This document shows, in pieces, positions 10,703-63,400 of a stretch of 64,000 nt of DNA. Each line of letters opens with the position of its first letter. Positions within the stretch are counted from its first letter, which is position 1. Where the stretch lies: contig CACVBU010000682.1 in NCBI GenBank assembly GCA_902728285.1, positions 29,970 through 93,969 of the forward strand, in the 5' to 3' direction. This DNA is from Clytia hemisphaerica (lineage: Eukaryota; Cnidaria; Hydrozoa; Leptothecata; Clytiidae). The notes beneath the pieces were generated by a model. That model was not told the DNA's origin. It saw nothing but the letters and a program-made list of their open reading frames with translations, and searched no databases. A program made the position numbers and the translations under genes.

Positions 10703-13364
10703 ATGGAGTTAGTAAAAGAACGCTTGAATCAAATGAAAGATGACTATGAAACTTCTAATGACAAGATCATCAAATTCGAAAGTGAACTCCAAGAAAGTCG
10801 ACGAAATTTAGAATCTGCTGTCAACGAGAAAGAATCACTTTTGAGGCGTATTGAAGTTGTCGAATCGCAAATCATCAATGCCAATAAGAATCGTGAACGG
10901 ATCGTTGATGATTTGAGGTATTTGGAACGCAATACAGATATCAATGAGGGGAAAAGAAAATTCCTCGAAAATAAAGAACTCGAAGGTGACATAAACATTT
11001 GTCGACTTGAAGAGAGATTATCTGAAGTTCGAGATAAGTTTTTTGAAAACTCCATCAAATGTGAAGAGGGTGAACGCAGGCTAGCCGTACTCCGATCCGA
11101 TTTTGATAAATTACGGTCTAGACGTTTGGAGATGCAGGAGCATGCGGTTTACTTGCAGCGAGATTTGGATGAAAAGACATTGAAATCACGTGAAATGGAG
11201 GATCACTTGGCAAACAATGGTGCCAAGGAATACGATGATGAAGCCAATCTAAGGATTGTTGAGGATTTGCATCGTGAGGAATTGGATCGAGAAGAAAGAG
11301 CCAGATTGAGAGTTCAAAAGCTACAACGCGTCATCGAAATGGTTGAAGGTACATTTATCAATTTTATTGAAGTGGGGAGGGTTACCAGGGTGTCTACGGG
11401 ACCTTGAAAACCTTGAAAACCTTGAAAATGAACCACCCAACCTTGAAAACCTTGAAAACTATCAATTTTCTGGGAAAAACCTTGAAAACCTTGAAAAATC
11501 GTTAAAAACCTTGAAAAGCACCATCCAGTCATTCAAAAAGTAAGAATAAGTAAAAAACCGCCTGCGGCGCTAAACCTTTATAACATTTAGAGAATTCCAT
11601 ATTTCCCTGTTTCTGTTGCGATTCTGTCACATATTTTTTTATCATTAGCTGAGTTTTTGTCACTAATTTTCCGTTTGCATGAGCCCTAAGAAATCGACTG
11701 TTCCCCAATTTTCAAATGACTTCAGGGCGTCTTGGAATAATGGCTGTTCATCAATAAAATTTCGAGGATTCCTTAAAACAACTCTTTTGGCAATTGATTT
11801 TTGTAAAAAACAAAATCAAAAACAAGGCGTTTTTTAGCCATTTGAAAGAGTCAAAATCAAAATTTTCTCTCGTCGGCGCAAACCATGGTTGCGCCTCCTC
11901 GGTCACTGTAAACAATTGGTTTTGCTTCTAATTCTTTATTTCAACAGTTGGAAGACTAGGGAGCTTGAGTATTTCCTTTTGTGGTATTCTTCTCGAGAGG
12001 GAGATAGGAATTTAACTGTGGAAGTAATTCCCCGGACACCAAAAGCGAATAAATTTTATTTGCTGTCCTCTATTTTTCTTTCACCTAGCACTCTGAAAAA
12101 AATAAAAAAAATTCTGTAAAGAGCCATATCAACTGAGTATCAAAAAAACTTGAAAAGTGCCAAAGTTTTTGCCAAAAAACCTTGAAAAACCACTTAAAAA
12201 TGACCAAAAAAACCTTGAAAACCTTGAAAACCCCGAAAAAAAATCCGTATACACCCTGGTTACGGTCTCTCTGAAGCAAGTCTGTAAAGTATATCATATT
12301 CCTTCATCAGATAGGCTAATTTCTTACTAATATCAAGGAAAACCAATCTGGAGTATATAGTCTATGAAATAGAGTTTGAAATTTATGACGAGGATTAGTT
12401 CCTTTCCTATACTTTAGGCGTACAAACTTTCGTGAGCAGAAACTTTCGCGAGGACGAAAAATTGCGAAATTCACAACATTTACTTTCGCGAATTTAACGG
12501 AAAATATTTTTCGCGAGCATAAACTTTCGCGAATCAAGACGTAAAATTGAGAATTTTCACATGAAAAAATGGCTTAGAGACACAAATACTTCTTGTGTTG
12601 GCTTGAAACATTTGTCTTTTGACTTATTAGTCCTTTAGCAGGCTAAAAAGTGCCATAAAAGTTACATTTTATTCAAAGTTTGAAGTTTTACAGATTTTCT
12701 ATTTTGTCAAGAATTTTTCGCGAGCATAAACTTTCGCGAATGGCCCTTCCTAGAATTTTTAAAGACATTTACTTTCGCGAAAAGGGCCAAAATTCGCGAA
12801 AATCGCGAAAGTTTCTGCTCGCGAAAGTTTCTACGCCTAAAGTATAGCCTGATCCCATAAAATAATCCAGCACCATCAGTTGAAGGGAATAGGGACCTTT
12901 AGCATCTAAGACGACGACTTGAATGAGGACGCGAAGTAAATCTTAAAATCGACGGACGGGTATGTGCGGAGGTTAAGGGTATGTTTTTCAAAATAGCAGA
13001 AATGCACTGTAAGGGTGGACTTTTGATAAATGCACCGTATGGGTGGAAATTTCAGCAAATCTAGGAAAAATTGCTAATTTTTGCTCGAAAATCTTGATTT
13101 TTTTGCTCTTTAGAGTTTAAAGGTTGAAAAGAAATGCACTGTAAGGGTAATTTCACCGATTTTTTCTGCACTGTAAGGGTGCGATTCTAAAAGCCAATTT
13201 TTTCGCCGCACACACGTCAGTTGGTAAACTCCCCCTCCCCCGGGATCGACAAAGACTTGAAATTGACACTGTTTTTATCTTTAGATCAAATAGAAGAGGT
13301 TCGTAGGCGAAAAAAGAAGCTGCAAGTTGAATACAAAAACTCTTTGGACATTATCGTGAATTAA
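10703..13364 (+). CDS. Tropomyosin-like coiled-coil protein
   Basis: The exons are 10703-11348 and 13285-13364, joined after one base of a codon; the product has about 241 residues. The first exon is nearly pure heptad-type sequence from residue 1 (MELVKERLNQMKDDYE) to about residue 215, with regularly spaced Leu/Ile/Val and many Glu, Arg and Lys. There is no proline-rich or globular domain, signal peptide or membrane segment. Patterns such as LEERLSEVRDKFFE and ERRLAVLRSDFDKLRSRR recall tropomyosin, but the protein is shorter than the usual 284 residues and lacks the canonical tropomyosin N-terminus, so I call it tropomyosin-like only. The short second exon ends in a basic stretch (EEVRRRKKKLQVEY) and the sequence NSLDIIVN. 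The single coding intron (1.9 kb) carries two DNA transposons. An acceptor-like TTTCAG lies 31 nt upstream of the start. Confidence 0.7.
11386..12258. mobile_element. hAT-like MITE with CTTGAAAAC subterminal repeats
   Basis: The ends CAGGGTGTCTACGG and, inverted, CAGGGTGTATACGG match at 13 of 14 bases. Flanking GTTAC occurs at 11381-11385 and 12259-12263, a likely target duplication. Just inside both ends are runs of CCTTGAAAA in the same (direct) orientation. The element lies in the intron of the coiled-coil gene. It is non-coding. Confidence 0.75.
12407..12847. mobile_element. 441-bp MITE rich in CTTTCGCGA repeats
   Basis: The terminal inverted repeats read CTATACTTTAGGCGTA at the left and TACGCCTAAAGTATAG at the right, followed by mirrored AAACTTTCGCGAGCA motifs. 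TATA at both tips fits a TA target as in Tc1/mariner elements. At least eight TTCGCGAA-type motifs lie inside, a local CpG enrichment in AT-rich DNA. It lies in the coiled-coil gene intron, 149 bp after the preceding hAT-like element. Confidence 0.75.
13003..13185 (+). repeat. Clustered GCACTGTAAGGGT repeats
   Basis: TGCACTGTAAGGGT or a one- to two-base variant occurs near 13004, 13039, 13135 and 13172. The spacing is irregular. The tract is in the intron of the coiled-coil gene and may be a fragment of another transposon. Confidence 0.45.
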
Positions 13365-15129: not shown

Positions 15130-18100
15130 ATGAGGGTTTTGATTCCGGTAAGACATAAATTAACTTAGATTTAGAAGATTAAATTGATCAGTTTCTTCAA
15201 TGACTTCTAAGTTTAAATTTAAAAACAGTCAAGCAATATATTTCGGTTGTATCACCATTCTCAAGCTTATAAAAATACAAGTACTAGTAATACATACACC
15301 TTGAGAAAGGTGATACCACCGAAATATATTGCTTGACTGTTTTTAAATTTTAAACTTTGAAAAACGGCTTCAAATTATAACAATTCAATGACTTCATTCT
15401 TAATATATACTGGACTAAAGCATAGTGAAAAACAAAAGCTGCAAAGTCCAATTCGCACGCTTTTTCGAAGTTTGTCTTCTCTATCGCAGAATACAAGTTG
15501 ATGTTCTTATATCTTTTTTTGTTTTAGAAATTGGACACTGCCACTATTGGCGATCCATCAGAATCGTACAGACCAGAAAAGATCTCAAGAACTAAAAAGA
15601 CTAAAGAACAATTTCGTAATTATGATGTATGGAAGTTTATTAGATAATTTCTATCCCCACTATGTTAGTTGATTGATTACATGTTTTCCTTTTTAAGAAA
15701 GTCAAATATTTTGATTTTAAGCCTTAAAATGTTCTTAACTTGTTCTTAACATGTCGGAGATGAGAAGCCTTATGTTCCTATATAGTTTGTTCTTATAAAA
15801 AAAACGTGTACTAGAAATTGATTCAGTGTGATGGGTAAGAGTTGAATATGGACTGAAGTACAATGCTTTTATATTTACTCATTTCAGGAGAATCTTCAAA
15901 CAGATATGGTGAAGAAAACTTACCTTCTAATGCATGAGAAACAATGCGTTCAATTTGTCAAAAAAATGGTAATTTCTTTCTGTTTCTTTTCATTCATTCT
16001 GTGAATTTCCATAGGAAAAATGATCGCTTTCATTTTCAGGACCTTATATATCGTCGAATTAACGATTTTATCGATGAATCTATCAATACATAACATATCG
16101 ATAGACTTTCATCGATAGAAATTTAACGCCCCTTAGAACCTCTAAGATCTCCAAACAACCGTCAACGTTTCTACAATTTTAGGGGTTGTAAACACTTCGT
16201 TTCCTTTGAGACAGGGTTGTAAACACCTCGTTTTTATTGAGGCAGGGGTTGTAAACACTTCGTTTCCTTTGAGACAGGGTTGTAAACACTTCGTTTTCAT
16301 TGAGACAGGGTTGTAAACACTTCGTTTTCATTGAGACAGGATTGTAAACACTTCGTTTCCTTTGAGGCAGGGTTGTAAGCACTTCGTTTTCATCGAGGCA
16401 GGGTTGTAAACACTTCGTTTTCTTTGAGACAGGGTTGTAAACACTTCGTTTCCTTTGAGGCAGGGTTGTAAGCACTTCGTTTTCATCGAGGCAGGGTTGT
16501 AAACACTTCGTTTTCTTTGAGACAGGGTTGTAAACACTTCGTTTCCTTTGAGGCAGGGGTGTAAGCACTTCGTTTTCATCGAGGCAGGGGTGTAAACACC
16601 TCGTTTTTATTGAGGCAGGGGTTGTAAACACTTCGTTTCCTTTGAGACAGGGTTGTAAACACTTCGTTTTCATTGAGACAGGGTTGTAAACACTTCGTTT
16701 TCATTGAGACAGGGTTGTAAACACTTCGTTTTCATTGAGACAGGGTTGTAAACACTTCGTTTTCATTGAGACAGGGTTGTAAACACCTCGTTTTCATTGA
16801 GACAGGGTTGTAAACACTTCGTTTCCTTTGAGACAGGGTTGTAAACACCTCGTTTTCTTTGAGGCAGGGTTGTAAACACTTCGTTTCCTTTGAGACATGG
16901 TTGTAAGCACTTCGTTTCCTTTGAGGCAGGGGTGTAAGCACTTCGTTTTTATTGGGGTAGGGGTGTAAGCACTTCGTTTTCATTGAGACAGGGTTGTAAA
17001 CACCTCGTTTTCTTTGAGACAGGGTTGTAAACACTTCGTTTCCTTTGAGACAGGGTTGTAAACACTTCGTTTCCTTTGAGACAGGGTTGTAAACACTTCG
17101 TTTCCTTTGAGACAGGGTTGTAAACACTTCGTTTCCTTTGAGACAGGGTTGTAAACACTTCGTTTTCATTGAGACAGGGTTGTAAGCACTTCGTTTTCTT
17201 TGAGGCAGGGTTGTAAACACTTCGTTTTTATTGAGACAGGGTTGTAAACACTTCGTTTCCTTTGAGACAGGGTTGTAAACACCTCGTTTTCTTTGAGACA
17301 GGGTTGTAAACACTTCGTTTTCATTGAGACAGGGTTGTAAACACCTCGTTTTCTTTGAGACAGGGTTGTAAACACCTCGTTTTTATTGAGGCAGGGGTTG
17401 TAAACACTTCGTTTTCATTGAGACAGGGTTGTAAACTCTTCGTTTTCATTGAGACAGGGTTGTAAACACTTCGTTTTCATTGAGGCAGGGGTTGTAAACA
17501 CTTCGTTTTCATTGAGACAGGGTTGTAAACTCTTCGTTTTCATTGAGACAGGGTTGTAAACACTTCGTTTTCATTGAGACAGGGTTGTAAACACCTCGTT
17601 TTCTTTGAGGCAGGGTTGTAAACACTTCGTTTCCTTTGAGACAGGGTTGTAAACACTTCGTTTCCTTTGAGGCAGGGGTGTAAGCACTTCGTTTTCATTG
17701 GGGCAGGGGTGTAAGCACTTCGTTTTCATTGAGACAGGGTTGTAAACACCTCGTTTTCTTTGAGACAGGGTTGTAAACACTTCGTTTCCTTTGAGACAGG
17801 GTTGTAAACACTTCGTTTCCTTTGAGACAGGGTTGTAAACACTTCGTTTCCTTTGAGACAGGGTTGTAAACACTTCGTTTCCTTTGAGACAGGGTTGTAA
17901 ACACTTCGTTTTTATTGAGACAGGGTTGTAAGCACTTCGTTTTCATTGAGGCAGGGGTGTAAACACTTCGTTTTCTTTGAGGCAGGGGTGTAAACACTTC
18001 GTTTTCTTTGAGGCAGAGGTGTAAGCACTTCGTTTTCATTGAGGCAGAGGTGTAAACACTTCGTTTTCATTGAGGCAGGGGTTGTTTTATTGAGGCAGGG

Positions 18101-20348
18101 GTGTAAGCACTTCGTTTTCATTGAGTCAGGGGTGTAAACACTTCGTTTTCTTTGAGGCAGGGGTGTAAGCACTTCGTTTTCTTTGAGGCAGAGGTGTAAG
18201 CACTTCGTTTTCATTGAGGCAGGGGTGTAAGCACTTTATTTTTAGAGACAGGGGTGTAAGCACTTCATTTTTTTTGTTTTGTAGCATGAAAAATGGTGCG
18301 AGTTCAATCATGCAGAGATGACAATGATGGAAGCCATCATGTTATTGGATAATCTGGTGGACGAATCTGACCCTGATGTAGGTACCCATTAAGTAAACCT
18401 TAAATAGTATGTTTTTTTACAGGCAGGTTGGATGATTATCATATGGGTGGCATAATGAAACTTTTGGCACTAAATCAAATGTTGTCACTTCCTCCAGAGC
18501 TATTCATGCATACTTATCATTTCTTAGATGATAAATTATCATTTTTCCTTTTTTACAGACGGACCTACCAAACTCAATACATGCATTTCAAACAGCTGAA
18601 CGTATTCGAGAAAAATACCCCGATGATGGTATGTAATACCTAAAATATTTTTTGCTGTATGTGTCATATTGTGGCTCTGAATGCATTATAGATATAAAAA
18701 CTAATTTTGTTGGAGGATGAGCAGAAGCCTAAACTGAAAAGTTTTCTTATAAACCAAGCTTTGCCTCAAATTTCCTTTATAAAATCTTTTTTCTTTCCAC
18801 TGATTTTACAAAATCCTATAACATTTTCACCTCAGACTGGTTGCACCTGACTGGATTGATCCATGATGCTGGGAAGGTGATGGCGTTATGGGGCGAACCA
18901 CAATGGGCGGTTGTGGGTGATACTTTTCCTATTGGGTGTCGCTTTCAAGAAGAATGTGTTTTTCATCGATTCTTCGAGATGAACCCTGATTACAATAACT
19001 CGAACTATAAGTAAGACATTTATTTTGATTATTACCATCATACAGTTTCTTGATTTTTCGATAACCCAAAGAGTTTGTGAGGGTCAGGTCTACAAAGCGA
19101 TTTTAACTTGGTCACGTCAATCATTGACAAATCCGTTTGTTCGTCTGCTTGACGTGGTTACGTTGATTCCAAAGGTGGGTTGCCATCAACATGATCTGAC
19201 AACCTGCTTCCATTGTCTTCACTACTTACTCGGATCGAGCAGCTGCTCGTGTTGTTTATGTTGTTAAGAATGAGACTAGTGTAGTTTTAGGTATTTAAAA
19301 TTTCACACCGTCTGTATGAACGACAATCACCATAAGGTAATGTAAACAAGTTGAGCTGTATTTAGAACCCCATATTATATTCCTCAACGAATCAACTTTT
19401 ACTTTCTGTTTACTTTAGCACAAAGAATGGTATTTACAAAGAACATTGTGGATTGGACAATGTCACGATGTCATGGGGCCACGATGGTAAACACCAAAGA
19501 CTTTTCATCTAGTTTGGGAAAATGCAAAAACCTTCAATTATAAGAAGAACCGTTTTTTATTCAGATTGTCATATTGTTAATATCTGGATGTTCTTCTGCG
19601 TTTACCAACATGGGGGATAAAAAAATGATTTTCGAATGTTACGTCACAGTTTTTGACGAATCAAATAACTAAAAATGGATCATTTGACGTTCGAAAATCT
19701 ATCCCACCTCACCTAGCCGGGTCAGCCTGCCTCCATATGAAAAGCCCTTAATAAAAAGGCATAAATTCATTATAATACCCCGCATTATTATTCTACATCT
19801 ACCTTTAGAATACATGTACCGACTTTTGAAGTTCAACAAAACAAGCTTACCTGAAGAAGCTCTTTATCGCATTCGTTACCATTCATTTTATCCTTTCCAT
19901 GGGAGTGACGCGTACATGAATTTGTGTGATGAGAAAGATATCAAGTGGCAAGAAAAGTTGAAGGAATTCAGGTAAGTAATAATTAATGACACAACACTGT
20001 TTCTAAGCACGAAAAAAATACCAACTTTTAAGTTTGAATTTCTTTTGTAAAACCTGCACTTCGAGTTTGACACCTTTCCTTATCACTAGAAATATAATAA
20101 GTCTGAGTGGAAAAGGAGCTATTAAGCTCAGCCACTTTAAACGCACAAATCACAACCCAATCATACTGTACATAGAAAGTTACCCTTCGGAAAAAGAAAA
20201 GAAAGAACGAATCCTATTTCCATATTTTTCTTTTTCCAGTACGTTCGATTTGTATTCGAAAGCAGAATCGATTCCAGACGTGAAAGCATTGACACCTTAC
20301 TATCAATCACTCATTGACAAATACATTCCTGGTGTTCTGAAATGGTAG
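15130..20348 (+). CDS. MIOX: Myo-inositol oxygenase
   Basis: The nine exons are 15130-15147, 15528-15626, 15888-15968, 18285-18377, 18559-18628, 18836-19010, 19419-19486, 19809-19971 and 20240-20348. All junctions agree in phase and give 291 residues (human 285). The enzyme cleaves myo-inositol to D-glucuronate with O2 at a di-iron centre in the cytosol. Every known ligand is visible: His105 (IHAFQTAE), His130 and Asp131 (LIHDAGK, with Lys134), His200 (SWGHD), His226 (RYHSFYP) and Asp259 (FDLYSK). The C-terminus [10 protein letters not shown] is nearly invariant in the family. The first exon encodes only MRVLIP but has a good donor (GTAAGA) and fits the family N-terminus. Intron 1 carries a 150-bp foldback MITE. 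Intron 3 (15969-18284) is almost wholly a 31-bp minisatellite. An acceptor-like site lies 61 nt upstream of the start. Confidence 0.95.
15209..15357. mobile_element. 150-bp foldback MITE in MIOX intron 1
   Basis: Arms of about 60 bases starting AAGTTTAAATTTAAAAACAG pair with an almost perfect inverted copy around a loop near 15270-15300. The arms include CAATATATTTCGGT and TCAAGCAATAT. This would fold into a long hairpin in the pre-mRNA. Confidence 0.75.
16182..18271 (+). repeat. 31-bp minisatellite, about 67 copies, in MIOX intron 3
   Basis: The unit reads, in two halves, GGGTTGTAAACACTTCG and TTTTCATTGAGACA. Variants are mixed along the array: CTTTGAGACA or ATTGAGGCA ends, TTTCC for TTTTC, GTAAGC for GTAAAC, and an extra G. 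At about 18080 one unit is shortened. The array fills nearly all of the intron and ends about 13 bases before the exon 4 acceptor. Because 31 is not a multiple of three and the unit has no stop on the minus strand, long minus-strand open frames arise with no likely coding meaning. A CRISPR is excluded: there are no distinct spacers. Confidence 0.95.
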
Positions 20349-30100: not shown

Positions 30101-33100
30101 GTAAATATTTTGGAGAGATTTTTTCAAAAATTTTGCTTGTTAGGGGCCTGGAGTGAGTTTTTCAAGATTAATAGGATGAATCAGTTCTTTTGGTCTAAAA
30201 TAGGTTTAGGACATGAACGGGTCATTTTGAAAGGAAATTCTTTTTCACTTTTCAGATGTTAGACTTTTTTGATGAAATCCCATTTGATGATATTGATGGT
30301 GGTGTCTGGAAACAAGGATGGGACATCTCATACTCCAGAAACGCATTTGATAATAAAAAGCTCAAAGTATTTGTGATGCCTCATTCACACAATGATCCAG
30401 GTAAAACCCAATATTTTCAAATGATAATTGAACAGCTATCTTAAAGACTTGTTCACTTTTTTGTTAAAAAAATAAACAGTTAACCCTAGGCTACGTCATA
30501 TCTTCCTTCAGTTTCAGCGTAAAACTCCTACTCTTCAGGATATGAGCACTGCTCTTGTTTTGGATATTCAAATCCTCCGGATAAATCGCATGCGCAGTGA
30601 TGTTTTAGTGAAACAAAAGAGGGTTTCGAAACCTAAGCCAATCAGCTGTGTTTTAAACATTCTTTTATTTGAAATCTCTATTGATAAACATCTTTTGTGA
30701 AAGTCTATTATGTTTAAACCTTTTAATAAGCAATTCTCGGTAGGGGTTACTAGTGGCCGTCTATAGCAGTGCCTATAGACCAAGAGTAAGGCCTAACAGC
30801 CTGGAGCTGTCTGTTGTGTAGACTAAGCTAACCCCTATTCAAAAGATAAATAAATAAACAAACATAATAAATGTTACTTTAAGGATTAGCACAGATTAGC
30901 ACTTTCTTTATAACAGCAAACTTTTGATATAACAATTTCCCAAAATCATTATTTTTTATAGGCTGGTTGAAGACAGTTGTGAGCTATTTTAATGATCAAA
31001 CAGTTCACATCATTTCTAATATCGTGGATGCACTTGCAAAAGATGAGAAAAGAAAATTCATTTGGGCTGAAACTTCTTATTTCAAAATGTGGTGGGATCA
31101 AACCTCTCCAATGAGAAGACAGCTTGCTCAAGAGTAGGTTTGAATCTCTTAAGAATAAACCAATCAAAATGAACAAAACACTTTTCTATGTGTTCATGTT
31201 TTTTTAAAATTTTGTTAGAGAATATTTTACAGTCTATGACAAATTTTCTTGTTGTTTTCATGTTGAACACTTTACTTAATGGAATTTTCAGTGACTTCCT
31301 TTCTTGAATGGGTACAATAAAAATTTTCTGCGAGTGTACTATTCTTGATGGATATTTTTTACAGGCAAATAAGAAATGGACAATTGGAGATAGTGACAGG
31401 TGGATGGGTGATGAATGATGAGTCAAACCCTCATTATTGGAACATGCTTGACCAAATGATGGAAGGTCATATATGGATGCAACAACATATTGGTAAATAT
31501 CCTTACTTTTTCGAAAGTATGTTAGAAAGAGAGAATCTTAAATCATACATGTGGTAATCAGTTAAAGATAATGTAAACTCCTGAGCCTATATACACTACT
31601 CATACCTGAGTCCCTGTTGTGCTGCAAGCAATATTGTAGAGTATTGTTCACCAATTATATTGTGTAGTCTAAGTAATTCTATAAATAGTTTAGTTAGATA
31701 AAAACACCTTCAAGTGATAATATCTTTTTTTTAAGTCATTTTGCTACACTTCATTTATGTTTTTAACAAGTTCTCTGTCTCTTATCATACCCAGGTGTAA
31801 AGCCAAAGTATGGTTGGGCCATTGATCCCTTTGGTTACTCATCTACCATGCCATATCTTTTGAAGAGAATGGGTTTTGAAGGCATGCTCATTCAACGTGT
31901 TCACTACAATGTGAAGAAATATCTGGCCAAGAAAAAGAACTTAGAATTCATGTGGAGACAAAACTGGGGTAAGTTATTTTGTTCTTCCTAATTGTCTTCT
32001 GGTGTTCATTTCTACTATCTTATTTGATAAAGTTATAAACTCTCTCAGTTAGTTTTTTATTTAATTTTTTTTCGATTTTTCATTATTTATCATGGTTTTT
32101 TGGTGGTCACTTTTTAACAAATTCTGGATTAAATAATGTCAGTGCACATTGAGGTACTAACATACGTTTATCTATTTTAGACCATGGTAAATCAACTGAT
32201 ATATTCACCCATGTCATGCCATTTTACAGTTACGATGTTCCTCATACTTGTGGACCTAACCCAAAGGTGTGTTGTCAATTTGATTTCCGTAGATTGTCAG
32301 GTGGAGGAATGTTTTGTCCCTGGCATATCCCTCCAAAGAGAATTGATGATCACAATGTACGAGAAAGAGCTGAAACACTTCTTGACCAGTATAAAAAGAA
32401 GGCTCAACTTTACAGATCTAATGTTGTTTTGGCACCCCTTGGTGATGATTTCCGTTACGACAAAGAATTTGAAGTTCGTGAACAATTTAGTAATTATGAA
32501 AAACTGATGAATTATGTCAATTCACATCCTGAGCTTAATGCGGAAATCAAATTTGGTACACTTCAAGATTATTTTCATGCAGTTTTTGAAAGAGAAGGAG
32601 TCAAACCAGGAGACCATCCACCAGGTTTTCCAACCCTTGGTGGTGACTTTTTCACTTATGCTGATCGAAACGATCATTACTGGAGTGGATACTACACATC
32701 AAGATCTTTCTTTAAGCACATGGATAGAGAGTTGATGGCACATCTAAGGTTTGTATTAAAATTACCATAATTTTTTGTCATTATTCGAAGTCACTTGTGT
32801 GGATTTCGGTTGCATAAAGTTACACAAAACATTTGAACTAATTAGGATGTTTGCATAAAATTTGAATAGAGAGAAACCGACGTTATATCGTCTGAAACCA
32901 TAAAACCAGCAGTTTAAGATAAGACATATTGATATCCTTATAATTTTCAACCCTAATTTTATTCTCCAGAGCTGCTGAAATCATCTTTTCTCTTGCCAAC
33001 GCACATAGTCAGCACCATGGAAACTTTGAAGGAGAAGACTTATTCCACAAACTTTCAGGAGCACGTAAAGAGTTAGCTCTCTTCCAACATCACGATGGTG

Positions 33101-56535: not shown

Positions 56536-56541
56536 TTTATT
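56536..56541 (-). promoter_or_regulatory. Polyadenylation signal AATAAA for the K/E-rich gene
   Basis: TTTATT on the plus strand is AATAAA on the minus strand, 85 bases beyond the stop of the secreted K/E-rich protein. Confidence 0.5.
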
Positions 56542-56626: not shown

Positions 56627-59254
56627 TCAAGCGATATTTGAAGTATCCTGTGGGCTTCTTTCGTACTGACTTTTCGTTTCTTCTTTATTTTCTTCTTCTT
56701 TTCGATTTTTTTCGTCATCTTCCTCTTTCTTCGTACTCGATTTGTTATCAAACTCGGTTGTTTTGTTCTGTTCGTTTTGGTCTTGTGATGGTTTATCCAT
56801 TAATAATTCTTGTGAATCGTTCGATTTTGTTTTCTCCTCCTTTTCGTCACTTGATTTCTCATCTTTTGAATCTCTTTCGCCTTCTGAAAATTTAGGAAGC
56901 CAATTCTTGTTGGGACCATTATCATCTTCTTTTGGATCAAACTTTTTATCCTCTTCCTTTCCCTCCTCCTTCTCATTAGCTTTTGTTTGCTCTCCACCGT
57001 TCTCTTCTGACGTTCCTTCCTTTTTCATTTCGCTCCCCTCCATTTTCTGGCCATCACTCTCACCCTTGTTGTCTTTCTCGAAAGCGGCTGAACAAGCAGC
57101 ATCGGTGCACCCTTCTCCTTTGTTTCCGTGCTCCTCCTCAGAGAGTGGTTTCTCTCCTTCTTTGGAAAGTGCTTCATTTACTTTCTGCTCCTGCTCAGGT
57201 TTTTTCGTCTCCTCCACTTTTGGCTCCTCCTCGGGTTTCTTATTTTCTTCACTTTCAGGTTTTTTATCTTCAACAATTTTGTCTTCAGGTTTTATATCTT
57301 CTTTTGCTTTCTCGTCTTTCTCTCCTTTTGCCATTTTCAGTGCATTAAGAGCTTCCTCCTCTTTGCTCTCGTGTACGGCACTGGCCCCTGCCACCGTGCA
57401 TGCGGCGTCAGTACATTCACTTCGAATGGATTGATCATGGTCCATATCCTTCATGTCAAACCAGTCCATTTTACTGCCTTCTTTCTTTTCTTTTTCTCCT
57501 GCCGGGTTGAACTTCTTGAAATCTCCGTAAGCAGCCTCTTTTTCCTTTGGTTGTTCGGAGCTTTGTTTATTTTCGAGCTTCTTCTGTTCTTCTTCTTGCT
57601 TCTTAATCAATTTTTCTTTCTCTTCAGCTTGCTTTTCGTCAAGTGTTTTCTGTTCTTCTGCCTTCTTTTCCACTTCTTTTTTCTCTTCTTCGACTTTCTT
57701 TTCATCCTCCTTTTGTTTTTCTTCAGCTTGCTTCATCGCTTCTTTTTGCTTTTGCTCTTCCTCTTCTTGTTTCTTTTTCGCTTCTTTTTCTTGAGCTTCT
57801 TTCTCTTCCTCAGCCTTCTTCTGCTTCTCGTTTTCCTTTTTATCTGCTTCTTGTTTTTTCTCTTCTTCCTCTTCAGCTTTTTTGGCTTGAGTCGTCTTGT
57901 TTTCGTCCATTTTTTCAGCTTCTTTGTTATCTTTGCCTTCTTCTTTCTTTTGCTCCTTCGTTTGTTCGTCGTTGTTTTTCTTCTCCTCCTCTTCCTTCTT
58001 TTTCTCCTCTTCGTCTTCTTTTTTCTTTTTCTCTTCCTCTTTCTTTTTCTCTTCTTCGTCCTTCTCCTCCTCCTTTTTCTTTGGGTCTTCGTCATCTTTT
58101 TTCTTCGTTTCTTCCTCCTCAGCCTTCTTCTTTTCTTCTTCATCTTTTTTCTTCTTCTCTTCTTCCTCTTCAGCTTTCTTCTTTTCCTCTTCATCTTTTT
58201 TCTTCTTTTCTTCTTCATCTTTTTTCTTCTTTTCTTCTTCATCTTTTTTCTTCTTTTCTTCTTCATCTTTTTTCTTCTTCTCTTCTTCCTCTTCAGCTTT
58301 CTTCGTTTCTTCCTCTTCAGCCTTCTTCTTTGCTTCCTCGTCCTTTCTTTCTTGTTCTTTCTTCTCTTCTTCTTCCTTCTTCTTCTTCTCCTCCTTCTCC
58401 TTCTCCTTCTCAGCCTCCTCCTCCTTCTTCTTTTGTTCTTCCTTAGCGTCTTTTTCCATCTTTTCTTCCTTCTGCTTATCCTCGTCTTTCTTTTTCTCGT
58501 CCTCGTCTTTCTTTTTCTTCTCATCTTCTGTTTTATCATTAGGATTTTTGGTTGGAACACCTTCTGAATCTTTTGAATCTGTGTTCAATTCAGCCTTCTT
58601 ATTTGACTTCTCGTCTTTCTTTGGTTTAGCTTCATCCTCACTGCTTTTCTTAGGGTCGCCTGGCAACAGCATTGGGTCTTGTGGCTCCTTCTTTGACTTG
58701 GAATCAGTCTTTGGATTGTCTCCTGGTAATTTCATGTTCTCCTTTTCGTCTGTCGCAAGCTTCATTGGTTCCCCGTTTGCTTTTTTAGGTGTATGATCCT
58801 CTTCGAGATTTCTTGCATAATAGTCTTTATCACTCTCTCCGATTTCTTTCTTATGAGCTGCTTTTTGTTTTGCAGCGAGAATCCTCTGTTCGCCTTTCAC
58901 AATCTCCTTCTCCACTTCAGGGCTTGCGAAGAAAGCATCTTCAGTGACAGAAGGTTCTGCAGATTTCTTTTTGGCTACTACAGTCGATATATGACGATTG
59001 CCGTTTTTCATCATGTCCATCTTGCCATTACTGTGTTCAATCTGTGATTTGATCTCAGCGATCGCTGTATCTGTGATTCCACTACCTTTTGTCTCACAGG
59101 CGGCATCTACGCATTGCTCGACTACTCCCTTTTTATTGATGCGAAATCCTCCAACATTCTTCGTACGACTGTTCGATTCTTGGTATCGTGAATGTGGAAG
59201 GGCGTTGATTATTTGAATCAGTAGAAGGGCGCTGATTGCCAACTCCACCCTCAT
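56627..59254 (-). CDS. Secreted Lys/Glu-rich protein with three CxDAAC motifs
   Basis: One open frame of 875 residues. I do not recognise the family. MRVELAISALLLIQIINALP is a good signal peptide, so the protein should enter the secretory pathway. Residues about 150-590 are almost wholly Glu, Lys, Asp and Ala in alternating charge blocks (KKKKDEEE repeated), the composition of a stable single alpha-helix. The only cysteines I see are six, in three identical-type motifs: CVDAAC (48-53), CTDAAC (614-619) and CTDAAC (716-721), flanking the charged rod. The C-terminus is again hydrophilic (DTSNIA). There is no membrane anchor. The ATG lies one base after a TTATTTTACAG acceptor-like site, and AATAAA follows the stop. 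It could be an extracellular matrix, mucus or vesicle-matrix protein; that is guesswork. Introns cannot be excluded in the repetitive part. Confidence 0.85.
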   Translation of the reverse strand: MRVELAISALLLIQIINALPHSRYQESNSRTKNVGGFRINKKGVVEQCVDAACETKGSGITDTAIAEIKSQIEHSNGKMDMMKNGNRHISTVVAKKKSAEPSVTEDAFFASPEVEKEIVKGEQRILAAKQKAAHKKEIGESDKDYYARNLEEDHTPKKANGEPMKLATDEKENMKLPGDNPKTDSKSKKEPQDPMLLPGDPKKSSEDEAKPKKDEKSNKKAELNTDSKDSEGVPTKNPNDKTEDEKKKKDEDEKKKDEDKQKEEKMEKDAKEEQKKKEEEAEKEKEKEEKKKKEEEEKKEQERKDEEAKKKAEEEETKKAEEEEEKKKKDEEEKKKKDEEEKKKKDEEEKKKKDEEEKKKAEEEEEKKKKDEEEKKKAEEEETKKKDDEDPKKKEEEKDEEEKKKEEEKKKKEDEEEKKKEEEEKKNNDEQTKEQKKEEGKDNKEAEKMDENKTTQAKKAEEEEEKKQEADKKENEKQKKAEEEKEAQEKEAKKKQEEEEQKQKEAMKQAEEKQKEDEKKVEEEKKEVEKKAEEQKTLDEKQAEEKEKLIKKQEEEQKKLENKQSSEQPKEKEAAYGDFKKFNPAGEKEKKEGSKMDWFDMKDMDHDQSIRSECTDAACTVAGASAVHESKEEEALNALKMAKGEKDEKAKEDIKPEDKIVEDKKPESEENKKPEEEPKVEETKKPEQEQKVNEALSKEGEKPLSEEEHGNKGEGCTDAACSAAFEKDNKGESDGQKMEGSEMKKEGTSEENGGEQTKANEKEEGKEEDKKFDPKEDDNGPNKNWLPKFSEGERDSKDEKSSDEKEEKTKSNDSQELLMDKPSQDQNEQNKTTEFDNKSSTKKEEDDEKNRKEEENKEETKSQYERSPQDTSNIA
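58185..58280 (-). repeat. 24-bp tandem repeat encoding KKKKDEEE
   Basis: About four near-identical 24-bp units (plus strand TCATCTTTTTTCTTCTTTTC + TTCT) encode an eight-residue charge repeat. They show recent slippage or unequal exchange inside the rod-coding part of the gene. Confidence 0.8.
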
Positions 59255-60442
59255 CCTGTAAAATAAATAAAGAGAATAGTTATTATTTGATAATGCCCAA
59301 AAATTTTAACCGAATTTTGGCTCCGAAACCAACGTGTTAAGTTTCACGCTTTTACGCCCTCGGGTAAAATTTTTATGATGTTTAGCACAACTAGATTACA
59401 CTTTACAAACCACTTTTTGATTCAATAACGCAGGTATAAAGAGATTTTTCTTCTGTTTTTTCAGAATCGTGTATTGAAAAGGGTAACTTAAAAAAATCAC
59501 AAAATTATTTAATCAAAAAGTGTTTCTTGAAGTAATTCTGGAACACCACAGTCGTAATAAATGCAAGTTTCAAGAAATATTTTCCGTACCACTCCTTACG
59601 CATAAGAAGGATCGTCTCCCAAAGCAGTCTTTAGTGCTCAAATATTTATTCATTATAGTAGCTGAGAGAACTTAACTTTTTGAGATACCCCCTTTAGAAG
59701 TTTGGCCCCTGATTTAGGCCATCACTGACCTGTGTGTCCGTTAAAACATTTGTCCGAGAAATATTAAATCTCACCTTTTCATTTGCAAATTGTCCAATTA
59801 AAACCTGGATAGATGAAGGTTTTCGAAATAAGTTATAGATTACTTTTGTATTACTTTTGTATTACTTTTCCATCAAAAAGCGATGCACGAGATCTCAGCG
59901 AGAGTTAATATGAGGTATTGAGCATAATTTTCATGGCTGGTTGAATTTCAAACCAAAGTAAATGTTTTGTTTTAATAAACTACACAAACAGTGCGCCGTT
60001 CTAGAATATGATTGATTTGATTTTCTTAATTACAATTAGATGTTATCTCCTGTACATAAAGCCAATCATTATCAAACTATACATTTGCCTGGCTGTATGA
60101 CTTTTTTAAAGCTAATCTGAATAAGGCTTTTTTTTTGGAAAGATATCGGGAAAATGGAATAAAGAATATTGGCCAGTTTTTCTGTTTTTATTATCTAATG
60201 ATAAATGTGAAAATTCAAAGTAATGAAGTATTATTAATCAATCAAAACGTACTACTGTATTTGACAATGACATTTATTCACATCTCAACATGGTTTCGTC
60301 ATTTCAAACACTATTGTTATTCACTAAAGGTTTTTGTTTACTAAATAACACAATCGATCGTTAGTATTCTGTCTATCCCACTTCTGCCGTCATATCGTGA
60401 CCCGGCGAAGAATAGGAAATTAAATTTGAATTGAAATTGTGT
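59255..60442. other. Intergenic between the K/E-rich gene and the glutamate receptor
   Basis: AT-rich, no gene seen. TTTATT motifs near 60186 and 60273 could be minus-strand polyadenylation signals of the receptor gene. The first bases upstream of 59255 (minus strand) form the acceptor-like site of the K/E-rich gene. Confidence 0.5.
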
Positions 60443-63400
60443 TTACTGGGTTTCGTGATCGTTCATCATCATTGACGTTCTCTCGCTTTCAACTCCTTCT
60501 TTTCCTCCCATTTGATTTCGTTGAAGGAATCCCGAACTTTCCTCATCCAGACTGTTGTCGTCATCCGCCTCATCTGAACTTCCACGCCCTACAGAAGCGC
60601 CCTCTCTCTCAGAGTTTGCATGTGCATGGTCATGATTCTCTCCAACGTAAATACTCTGAGAACTACTCTCCCTCTCAACCAAGCCTTTACTCTCAGAAAC
60701 GGCTCCGTCAATCGAGTTGTCACGCCCACGAGAAACGCCCTCAACATCCGCCATTTCATCTTTAGCACATCGATGTTGTACGGAGACTTTCCGCCATCGT
60801 TTAGCAGCGAATTCGATATCCTGTTCTTCCTCGTTTTCTTCAATCTCTTCCAAAGTCTCATCTTCCTCCATCTCAAAAGGAATCAACCATCTTCTCAGTA
60901 CCTCATTCTCTTCCAACATACCTTGCAATGCGCTATGTCGATACATACACTGCAAATCATGTGTTTGAGCCAACTTGGAGTAGACCATTTCTCCACCGAG
61001 CACGATGATTGCTAACCCGGTTGCTATACAAAGAACGACGAATAATTTCTTGAAAAACAAGATTGTGAGCTTCTCAGTGCTTTTCCAATAAGTGGTGGGA
61101 CATTCGTGGCGGAGCCAGCGGCTGTGTAAATGTAATAGCTCTTCGTTTTCGTGCATTTGTATGATGACTTGAGAGATCTCTTCGGTGAGTGGTGACCCTT
61201 TGGGAAGGACGAAACCGTAATATGAAGATGGGAGGTTTGTGTGATGTACCATGATTTTACACTGGCCAATGGTCGCTCGATAATATTTTGCAAACGAGCT
61301 CTCCATGAAATACGCGTGGATCTCTCTGTAAATAGACACCAAATGTACATTTTAGAGGAGATATTAGATGAAAAATGAAGTGAAAATTATCGAATGAGCA
61401 CTGAAGTAGTATACTCTTTCACTTTTAACACATTTTCTCAAGACGCTCTCTAAATTCCGAAAGTCAAAAAGGTGAACTATCAAAAATGTGCGGACATGAA
61501 ACTTTTGACTAGCCTGACTATAAAGGTAGTGTCATACTTATCGATGATAGCCTGTACTCCAGAGTTCAAATGTCGCGTATTATAATTCTCCATGAATTTG
61601 TCCAAACGTTTCAATACAGGATCTGTGGAAGCATCAAAGACGTCAGATAGGAAAGCTTTACTCTGTGTGGCAAGTTTGAAGTCGGTTGTTGGGTGTTGAA
61701 TCTTTGATCGAATTAGATGAAAAATATCTTAAACGTGGTTTTTCCGAAAAAGAGTTTTCTCATTTATGAGAATCTTATAAGAATTGTAAGACCTCACTAC
61801 TGGAAAGAAAACGTCAGAATTCGTCAAAACGTCATGACCAACTAAATCTTCCATTGTTCACAAAATATTTATTTAAGTAATTTTACCCGTTTAACTGAAG
61901 CAGAAGTTGGATTAATGCTTTACACAAAAATAAACAACCCGTTATTTTGATAATTCATTACTTCCTTACCCTCTTATCCTGTAAACCTTTGAAATCATTG
62001 AACCCTCCATGGACAACTTGCTGATACGTCAACGAAGCTGTATACATAGTCGTGATACAAACCATACCAAACGCAAACAAGATGGAGATCACACGTCCAC
62101 CGAATGTCCCTGGGTTCTTAGCGCCCATGTCTCGTTGCATGACCAACCCTGTGATGTACAAAATACAATCCTTGAAAACGTAATTGATCATGCGGATTCC
62201 GATATACTTACGGTCGTCAGTACTGACGCGTTTAACTAGTTGTAGCGCGTTTTCCGCCACGTACACCACAATGATGGATGCGATCCAGAACGCGAGGATA
62301 GATAGCTGTGTTGCGTGGCTCAAATTACTGAACATGTTGAATTCAGATTTCTTATCTGTCTTGGCGATTTCGTTCAAAGTGATGATGTTGATATCATCCA
62401 CCAGGAATGGGGTTGTGAAGTCGACCTGGTTCAAACGTCTTTTGGTGATCGTGATTGGTCCAGCTCCCATCAATGCATTACCTGATGCCAGCTCTCCTAA
62501 GACCCCGGAAGAGGTGGACACGTTCGACCGCGAAACATTTCCTGAAGCGTAATAACCGATGCTGTCAGTTATGTACAGGTCAAAATCGATTAACAATTCT
62601 TCTGAAATTTTCATCAACAAATCAACGATGTATCCGAAACAGTATAATGTTTTCTCTGTTTTAATTGGTCCTCGTAGATCATGTGACTTGATTGGTCCAT
62701 TTGAATCACGCGACATTCGACATTCCATTTTCCGCTTGACATCTTTAACTTCGTTTTCAGTATGTTCTTCCATTCGAGTGAAAAGAAAAGGCTCCATTAT
62801 TGTCGTCGCCACGGGAACGAGCGGTCGCTTCTTGGAGAATGTGGTCGCATCGATGCACAGTGTCTCGTTCTCCGAGAGGAACGCTATGTAAATAGATGTT
62901 CTTCCTTGAGGTGTGACCTTTTTTATATAAGACAGTGGTTGATTCCTACAAAATAATTTGGGTTTCTTGATTCGTTTTTGTTACACCAGGACAATTCACT
63001 AATCTTTCTTCGTGTCAGTGATGAGGAATCCTTTTAAAAACTTTGTAGATTTGATATATAAGACTACGAGGCTAACTCAACCAAAACTTACGAACAATTT
63101 AAGAACAAGCAGATACCAGAAATAACGAAGAAAATAGATTTGTTAAGACTCTTCCAAGTAAAAAGATTATCTACATCAGCTGATATAAGCCTGGCCTAAT
63201 CTTTCAGAAAAAGTAGGAAGGTTGAGTCAAAACTCATTGATTTTAATGAAAACGGATTTTTTCCTTCCCCGAAACTGGAAAAGCACTTACGATTGTTTCT
63301 TTGGAGAACAAACACATTCAAGTGGAGAGAAAGTGAAAGTTCGCTGTGGAGTGTATTCTGCTGTCACAATATTTTCTTCAGGAATCAACCAGAAGTCTTG

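Follow-up and report, generated by a model that had tools for sequence, protein, structure and literature searches.

Single alpha-helices (SAHs) have been studied mainly as cytosolic levers and spacers. As far as the available part of PMC5347031 describes them, SAH domains such as those of myosin-6 and the designed EK3 are rich in lysine and glutamate, set opposite charges three and four residues apart (i+3/i+4), lack a hydrophobic seam and carry near-identical EEEKKK blocks; the same part reports that the designed AEEEKKK sequence is a monomeric single helix, >90% helical at 10 C in 100 mM NaCl, and that its helicity in 4 M NaCl is still 60% of that value. A rod alike in composition, charge spacing, lack of a seam and EEEKKK blocks, though following a signal-peptide-like start and interrupted by a proline and a glycine (P391 and G440), is predicted here from a 64,000-nucleotide stretch of the genome of the hydrozoan Clytia hemisphaerica (below, the window, meaning the whole stretch of DNA analysed). 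It is encoded by a minus-strand open reading frame (ORF) of 875 amino acids (aa) that also contains three short cysteine motifs of the form CxDAAC; residues are numbered along this ORF, with its own methionine as aa 1. Metazoan SAHs are said in the available text of PMC5812594 to favour arginine over lysine, whereas the rod here is almost without arginine (1 residue). Lysine-rich tracts do occur outside the cytosol, as in the exported Plasmodium protein PfGARP with its lysine-rich domain (PMC13400357, as far as available), though that protein belongs to another organism and the likeness is one of description.

The reading favored here, tentatively and at a probability of roughly 0.42, is that the gene would encode a soluble secreted spacer protein, its CxDAAC pairs forming small loops or crosslinks beside the rod. 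This reading is built on the secretion-type N-terminus, the charge pattern, and the placement and retention of the cysteine pairs, all legible in the DNA itself; from these we infer the oxidation state of the cysteines, their crosslinking, the location and the material. The features concerned are:

59775-59782, minus strand: coding part of predicted exon 1, ATGAAAAG, adding MKR in frame ahead of the ORF methionine
59256-59774, minus strand: predicted intron of 519 bases, GT-AG, GTGAGA ... TTTATTTTACAG, with its acceptor one base before the ORF ATG
56627-59254, minus strand: main exon (875 aa), holding the signal-peptide-like start, the charged rod and all three CxDAAC motifs, from the ORF listing, composition and cysteine positions
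59198-59254, minus strand: signal-peptide-like stretch MRVELAISALLLIQIINAL, aa 1-19, from hydropathy
59096-59113, minus strand: motif 1, CVDAAC, aa 48-53, from the pattern scan and cysteine positions
57548-58519, minus strand: charged, single-alpha-helix-like rod, aa 246-569, 324 residues, from charge-pair, composition and repeat tests
57398-57415, minus strand: motif 2, CTDAAC, aa 614-619, from the pattern scan and cysteine positions
57092-57109, minus strand: motif 3, CTDAAC, aa 716-721, from the pattern scan and cysteine positions
56536-56541, minus strand: AATAAA polyadenylation-type signal, about 85 bases past the stop codon

The predicted gene and its N-terminus

The span of the 875-residue ORF is exactly that given in an earlier note on this DNA (the original prediction), which named no strand. 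The true start probably lies upstream of the ORF, by way of the predicted short first exon: the donor consensus patterns have a single match across 59256-60440, at 59775/59774, immediately after ATGAAAAG, and the predicted spliced frame of 2637 bases encodes 878 aa, beginning MKRMRVELAISALLLIQIINA (MKRMRVELA...). As predicted, this layout of exons, intron and AATAAA signal is ordinary animal gene anatomy.

By hydropathy, the measure used here to judge the signal peptide claimed earlier, the N-terminus is indeed signal-peptide-like, its best 11-mer (AISALLLIQII) having a mean hydropathy of 2.6. The same hydropathy analysis of the 875 aa found no second membrane-like segment, the best 19-mer past residue 25 scoring 0.59. 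Residues 1-19 may alternatively be an uncleaved signal anchor.

The charged rod

The boundaries of the rod, aa 246-569, were set by eye (the charge-pair test was run on aa 246-570). Its 324 residues are 80% K+E+D, with 18 alanines, one arginine and only nine residues from the group I/L/V/M/F/W/Y, so that it is a K/E/D rod and not the K/E/A rod first described. Opposite charges outnumber like ones by 164 to 54 at i+3 (z 7.7) and by 169 to 47 at i+4 (z 8.6), relative to 2000 shuffles, while i+7 and i+8 favour like charges, and this spacing signature peaks at about residues 301-420, the most regular part being aa 318-390; nine blocks of the form [AD]EEE(E)KKK(K) are present. No hydrophobic heptad seam was found in the rod, any register having only 2-6 of about 46 positions filled, alanine included. 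Both marks of an SAH, opposite charges at i+3/i+4 beyond chance and the lack of a heptad seam, are thus present, and the charge pattern, read here by our own charge-pair count in place of the published SAH predictors (Waggawagga, SCAN4CSAH), is the signature of a salt-bridged single alpha-helix, not of a coiled coil. The single-helix-like character proposed in the original prediction is supported in this way, though not the length of over 400 residues: the helix breakers P391 and G440 lie inside the rod and P569 at its end, and the longest run free of proline and glycine is 152 residues (aa 239-390). The rod may consist of two or three shorter helices.

A purine-rich strand stays open for trivial reasons, and over the rod this T-poor strand is also open in a second frame (275 aa), which would suit a purine-rich repeat open by chance and without a functional protein. 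Such an origin is highly improbable, however, given that aa 1-245, ahead of the rod, are far less purine-biased yet still open, that T within the rod makes up 0.6% of first codon positions but 8% of third ones, and that a signal-peptide-like start, splice sites and AATAAA are all present. The internal repeats of the rod bear on the same question. Of the pairs of 60-base rod stretches at least 80% alike, 555 of 555 are offset by a multiple of 3, and the 13 repeat pairs left after removal of near-duplicates contain 99 differences, distributed 20/16/63 over codon positions 1/2/3, counts that are indicative only, since the pairs overlap and are non-independent and since tandem 24-base units make frame-preserving offsets expected. 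Three pairs picked by amino-acid identity, a choice biased to silent changes, gave 5/4/16. With 63 of the 99 repeat differences at third positions, the rod looks coding and constrained, and outside its motifs the protein is thus not simply drifting, as had been supposed.

The KEKE motif is defined, in the available text of PMC3427183, as a segment of >12 aa with >60% K and E/D, no W, Y, F or P, and no five like charges running. A greedy scan of the rod yields eleven segments that pass, the longest of 85 and 104 aa; the whole rod fails as a single KEKE motif, owing to runs of five acidic residues and to P391. These segments, together with a net charge of about -60 (K+E+D account for 488 of the 875 residues), would be in keeping with a resident of the endoplasmic reticulum (ER) or of secretory granules, in which a KEKE-type polyampholyte would bind partners or calcium, with triadin's lumenal portion as a model, rather than serve as structural material. 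We consider this unlikely. The C-terminus, SNIA, is no ER-return signal of the KDEL type known in general, and no transmembrane segment follows the N-terminus. Triadin, as far as described in the same source, is alike in having lumenal K/E-rich segments that fit the composition rule, but it is membrane-anchored ahead of its lumenal part, and its 33-residue KEKE peptide is disordered by circular dichroism, whereas the protein here has no clear anchor, its sole strongly hydrophobic segment being aa 1-19, and the charges of its rod have helix-type spacing.

The cysteine motifs

The whole protein contains six cysteines, at 48/53, 614/619 and 716/721, and none lies outside the motifs CVDAAC, CTDAAC and CTDAAC, just as first reported; motif 1 precedes the rod and the other two follow it, all within the low-complexity arms that border the rod, with none inside. 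The spacing is beyond chance: when six cysteines were placed at random, three i,i+5 pairs arose in none of 200,000 trials, and shuffling of the protein gave three CxxxxC in 0 of 20,000 cases (at least one CxxxxC in 3.6%). At the DNA level, a degenerate CxDAAC pattern allowing at most one mismatch has three matches in the 64-kb window, all in this gene, where 0.07 are expected, and 0 of 100 shuffles reached three.

The codons of the motifs have changed while the amino acids have not. Copies 2 and 3 are identical in all six amino acids and have no codon in common, their third positions differing at 6 of 6; among same-residue codons only, as read by eye, copies 1 and 2 differ at four of five third positions and copies 1 and 3 at two of five. 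The differences at all six third codon positions rule out a recent DNA duplication as the source of copies 2 and 3. The motif residues would have persisted or converged during this DNA change, and because the amino acids are retained while the codons changed, the comparison supports selection on the motif; the conservation claimed in the original prediction is to that extent strengthened, within a comparison of the three copies in this one protein.

Six-residue CxxxxC rings occur in vasopressin-type peptides, and each CxDAAC could likewise be an intramolecular six-residue disulfide ring for binding or recognition, with the rod holding the loops apart and no covalent network. That the two cysteines of each pair are always five apart, with DAA invariant between them and no odd cysteine left over, would suit such rings well; no partner is known, however, and open-licence PMC text contained no relevant use of the motif among the matches listed, as judged by title; CTDAAC itself occurs there in one paper on a phage lysin. 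This use of the pairs is possible, if on balance rather unlikely.

A long acidic chain that has a signal-peptide-like start and contains a small, potentially cyclic peptide three times over also resembles a peptide or hormone precursor, in which the CxDAAC segments would be the active peptides, in cyclic form, with the charged stretches as spacers. The dibasic sites that flank the repeats of neuropeptide precursors are not found here, there being no KR, RR or RxxR in the 875 aa (KK and RK do occur); none of the three GK sites is close to a motif, and the flanks of the three motif copies differ, looking unrelated to each other by eye. A precursor is therefore very improbable.

The source genome being cnidarian, a component of the nematocyst (stinging capsule) has also to be considered, for secreted proteins there are as a rule crosslinked by disulfides and minicollagens are designed with cysteine-rich ends around a stiff middle. 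The hallmarks of minicollagens and the nematocyst wall are a propeptide end of the KR type and a dense cysteine domain; after the signal peptide there is no such KR end, nor is there a minicollagen-type cysteine domain, only isolated CxxxxC pairs, and a nematocyst role appears quite improbable.

Relatives in the genome and databases

The search for further CxDAAC proteins suggested in the original prediction was run as a DNA scan of the organism's whole assembly (417.4 Mb, 951 contigs) and gave no sign of a gene family. The degenerate pattern has 13 matches, 3 of them in this gene, and its reversed control 19; the other 10 matches lie in stop-to-stop frames of 19-75 aa only. CxDAAC as a repeated family in this genome was rejected mainly on the commoner control, as frames of that length could still be exons. 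Two of these ten places hold identical 24-aa frames, YCCPRCTDAACTKSPICYSLQKGK, on contigs C721 and C857 (L011 from base 1563, plus strand; L013, minus strand), perhaps a dispersed repeat or a duplicated exon.

For aa 1-200, scoring of the 4 best candidates in the assembly gave a self-match only at E up to 10. For residues 574-740, the 18 best candidates scored included no convincing relative; besides the self-match there was one 492-aa frame at E 1.97, without a cysteine pair and unrelated-looking by eye. No tandem paralogue was found in the window or in 40 kb of flank (C473:9970-29969 and 93970-113969) among frames of at least 40 aa with the patterns C..AAC, C.DA.C or C.D.AC. As far as these best-candidate searches go, which remote paralogues could escape, the gene is a single-copy orphan in its own genome.

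Pfam, searched at E up to 1 with the entire protein, with aa 1-200 and with aa 570-815, gave no family, and NCBIfam gave none for the whole protein and, for aa 1-200, one match at 12.4 bits against a cut-off of 27. Among solved structures, aa 1-200 had four weak matches (best E 0.016, to an S-layer protein), taken as chance, and a 45-aa segment around motif 2 had none. In open-licence PMC text, as far as the sources were available, no secreted single-helix protein of such design appeared among the matches listed, and a tenascin study, in its available part, only cites an SAH prediction program. The protein is, as far as searched, a previously undescribed combination of known elements.

How the protein might work

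If the gene encodes a secreted spacer, the signal-peptide-like start, with no second membrane segment after it, would bring a soluble protein into the secretory pathway, in whose oxidising conditions each CxDAAC pair would close a small disulfide ring; alternatively, the cysteines may pair with those of another chain within the assembled secretion. With one motif ahead of the rod and two behind it, the chain would be anchored on either side of the rod, whether to partners or to itself, and the rod would be a stiff spacer that could reach about 49 nm were all of it helical (324 x 0.15 nm). To judge from the designed AEEEKKK helix, the salt-bridged rod would be largely helical in sea-water salt, and the setting might be an extracellular material or mucus.

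Several points weigh against this picture of a stiff, crosslinked spacer. The helix is broken at P391 and G440; lumenal, partner-binding KEKE segments would also account for parts of the rod; the CxxxxC pairs may be merely structural, or may bind partners rather than crosslink; and the repeat counts that favour a constrained rod come from the overlapping pairs described above.

A bolder version would make the protein a new cnidarian extracellular building material, in which a long single helix, held by salt bridges and stable in sea water, would be flanked by six-residue cysteine rings that crosslink each chain to the next at their ends, an "ionic" equivalent of the spacers of collagen or silk. 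The silk proteins of the Chironomus Balbiani rings are secreted and combine highly charged repeats with regularly placed crosslinking cysteines; they differ in having many short cysteine repeats, where the protein here has one rod and only three cysteine pairs. We hold such a material to be decidedly unlikely.

Other features of the window and genome

On the minus strand, 61958-62812 encodes a portion of an ionotropic glutamate receptor of the NMDA type, matching Lig_chan-Glu_bd and Lig_chan in Pfam and having GluN1 chains as its best solved relatives. The minus-strand frame at 60443-61342 has no Pfam match and was put in the same receptor gene (60443-62812) by eye. The usual receptor gate motif is SYTANLAAF; the frame reads MYTASLTYQQ at the expected place, a divergent gate region. 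Elsewhere in the window, a 31-base minisatellite occupies 16183-18271, its main array (16183-18085) containing about 61 copies at 91% matches, and two ORFs on the minus strand, 164 and 193 aa long, overlap this minisatellite; a single 234-aa frame at 10703-11407 on the plus strand matches tropomyosin along residues 1-215 (E 9.5e-19) and is perhaps intron-poor or retrocopied; and 32216-32770, plus strand, is an alpha-mannosidase exon (Glyco_hydro_38N, E 7.9e-14).

The mitochondrial contig, C900 (14,551 bases; sequences L033 and L034), reads as code 4, with TGA as Trp (3 within COX1), AGR as the Arg of DTRAYF and ATA as Ile, the last two at conserved positions; the ascidian, echinoderm and arthropod-type mitochondrial codes are ruled out by the COX1 reading. 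The protein genes, named by eye, run on one strand in the order cox2-atp8-atp6-cox3-nad2-nad5-nad6-nad3-nad4L-nad1-nad4-cob-partial cox1, with the small rRNA between nad5 and nad6 and the large rRNA on the opposite strand at one end; the other end breaks off within cox1. Two tRNAs were found by Rfam at E up to 0.001, and none by ARAGORN with the bacterial code in the first 10,000 bases. We take this gene content and order to fit the cnidarian, hydrozoan type. A search of the contig for inverted 20-mers found none, which was counted against the hydrozoan type, some hydrozoans being expected to carry copies of cox1 at the termini.

Significance

Should the favored reading be true, a secreted SAH with cysteine anchors would mean that salt-bridged stiff spacers are used extracellularly, at sea-water ionic strength, and would provide a natural template for disulfide-linked helical fibres. 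Should the protein be merely an ordinary low-complexity orphan, it would still be a clear example of how codon changes can tell a motif that is old and retained apart from repeats that were duplicated recently.

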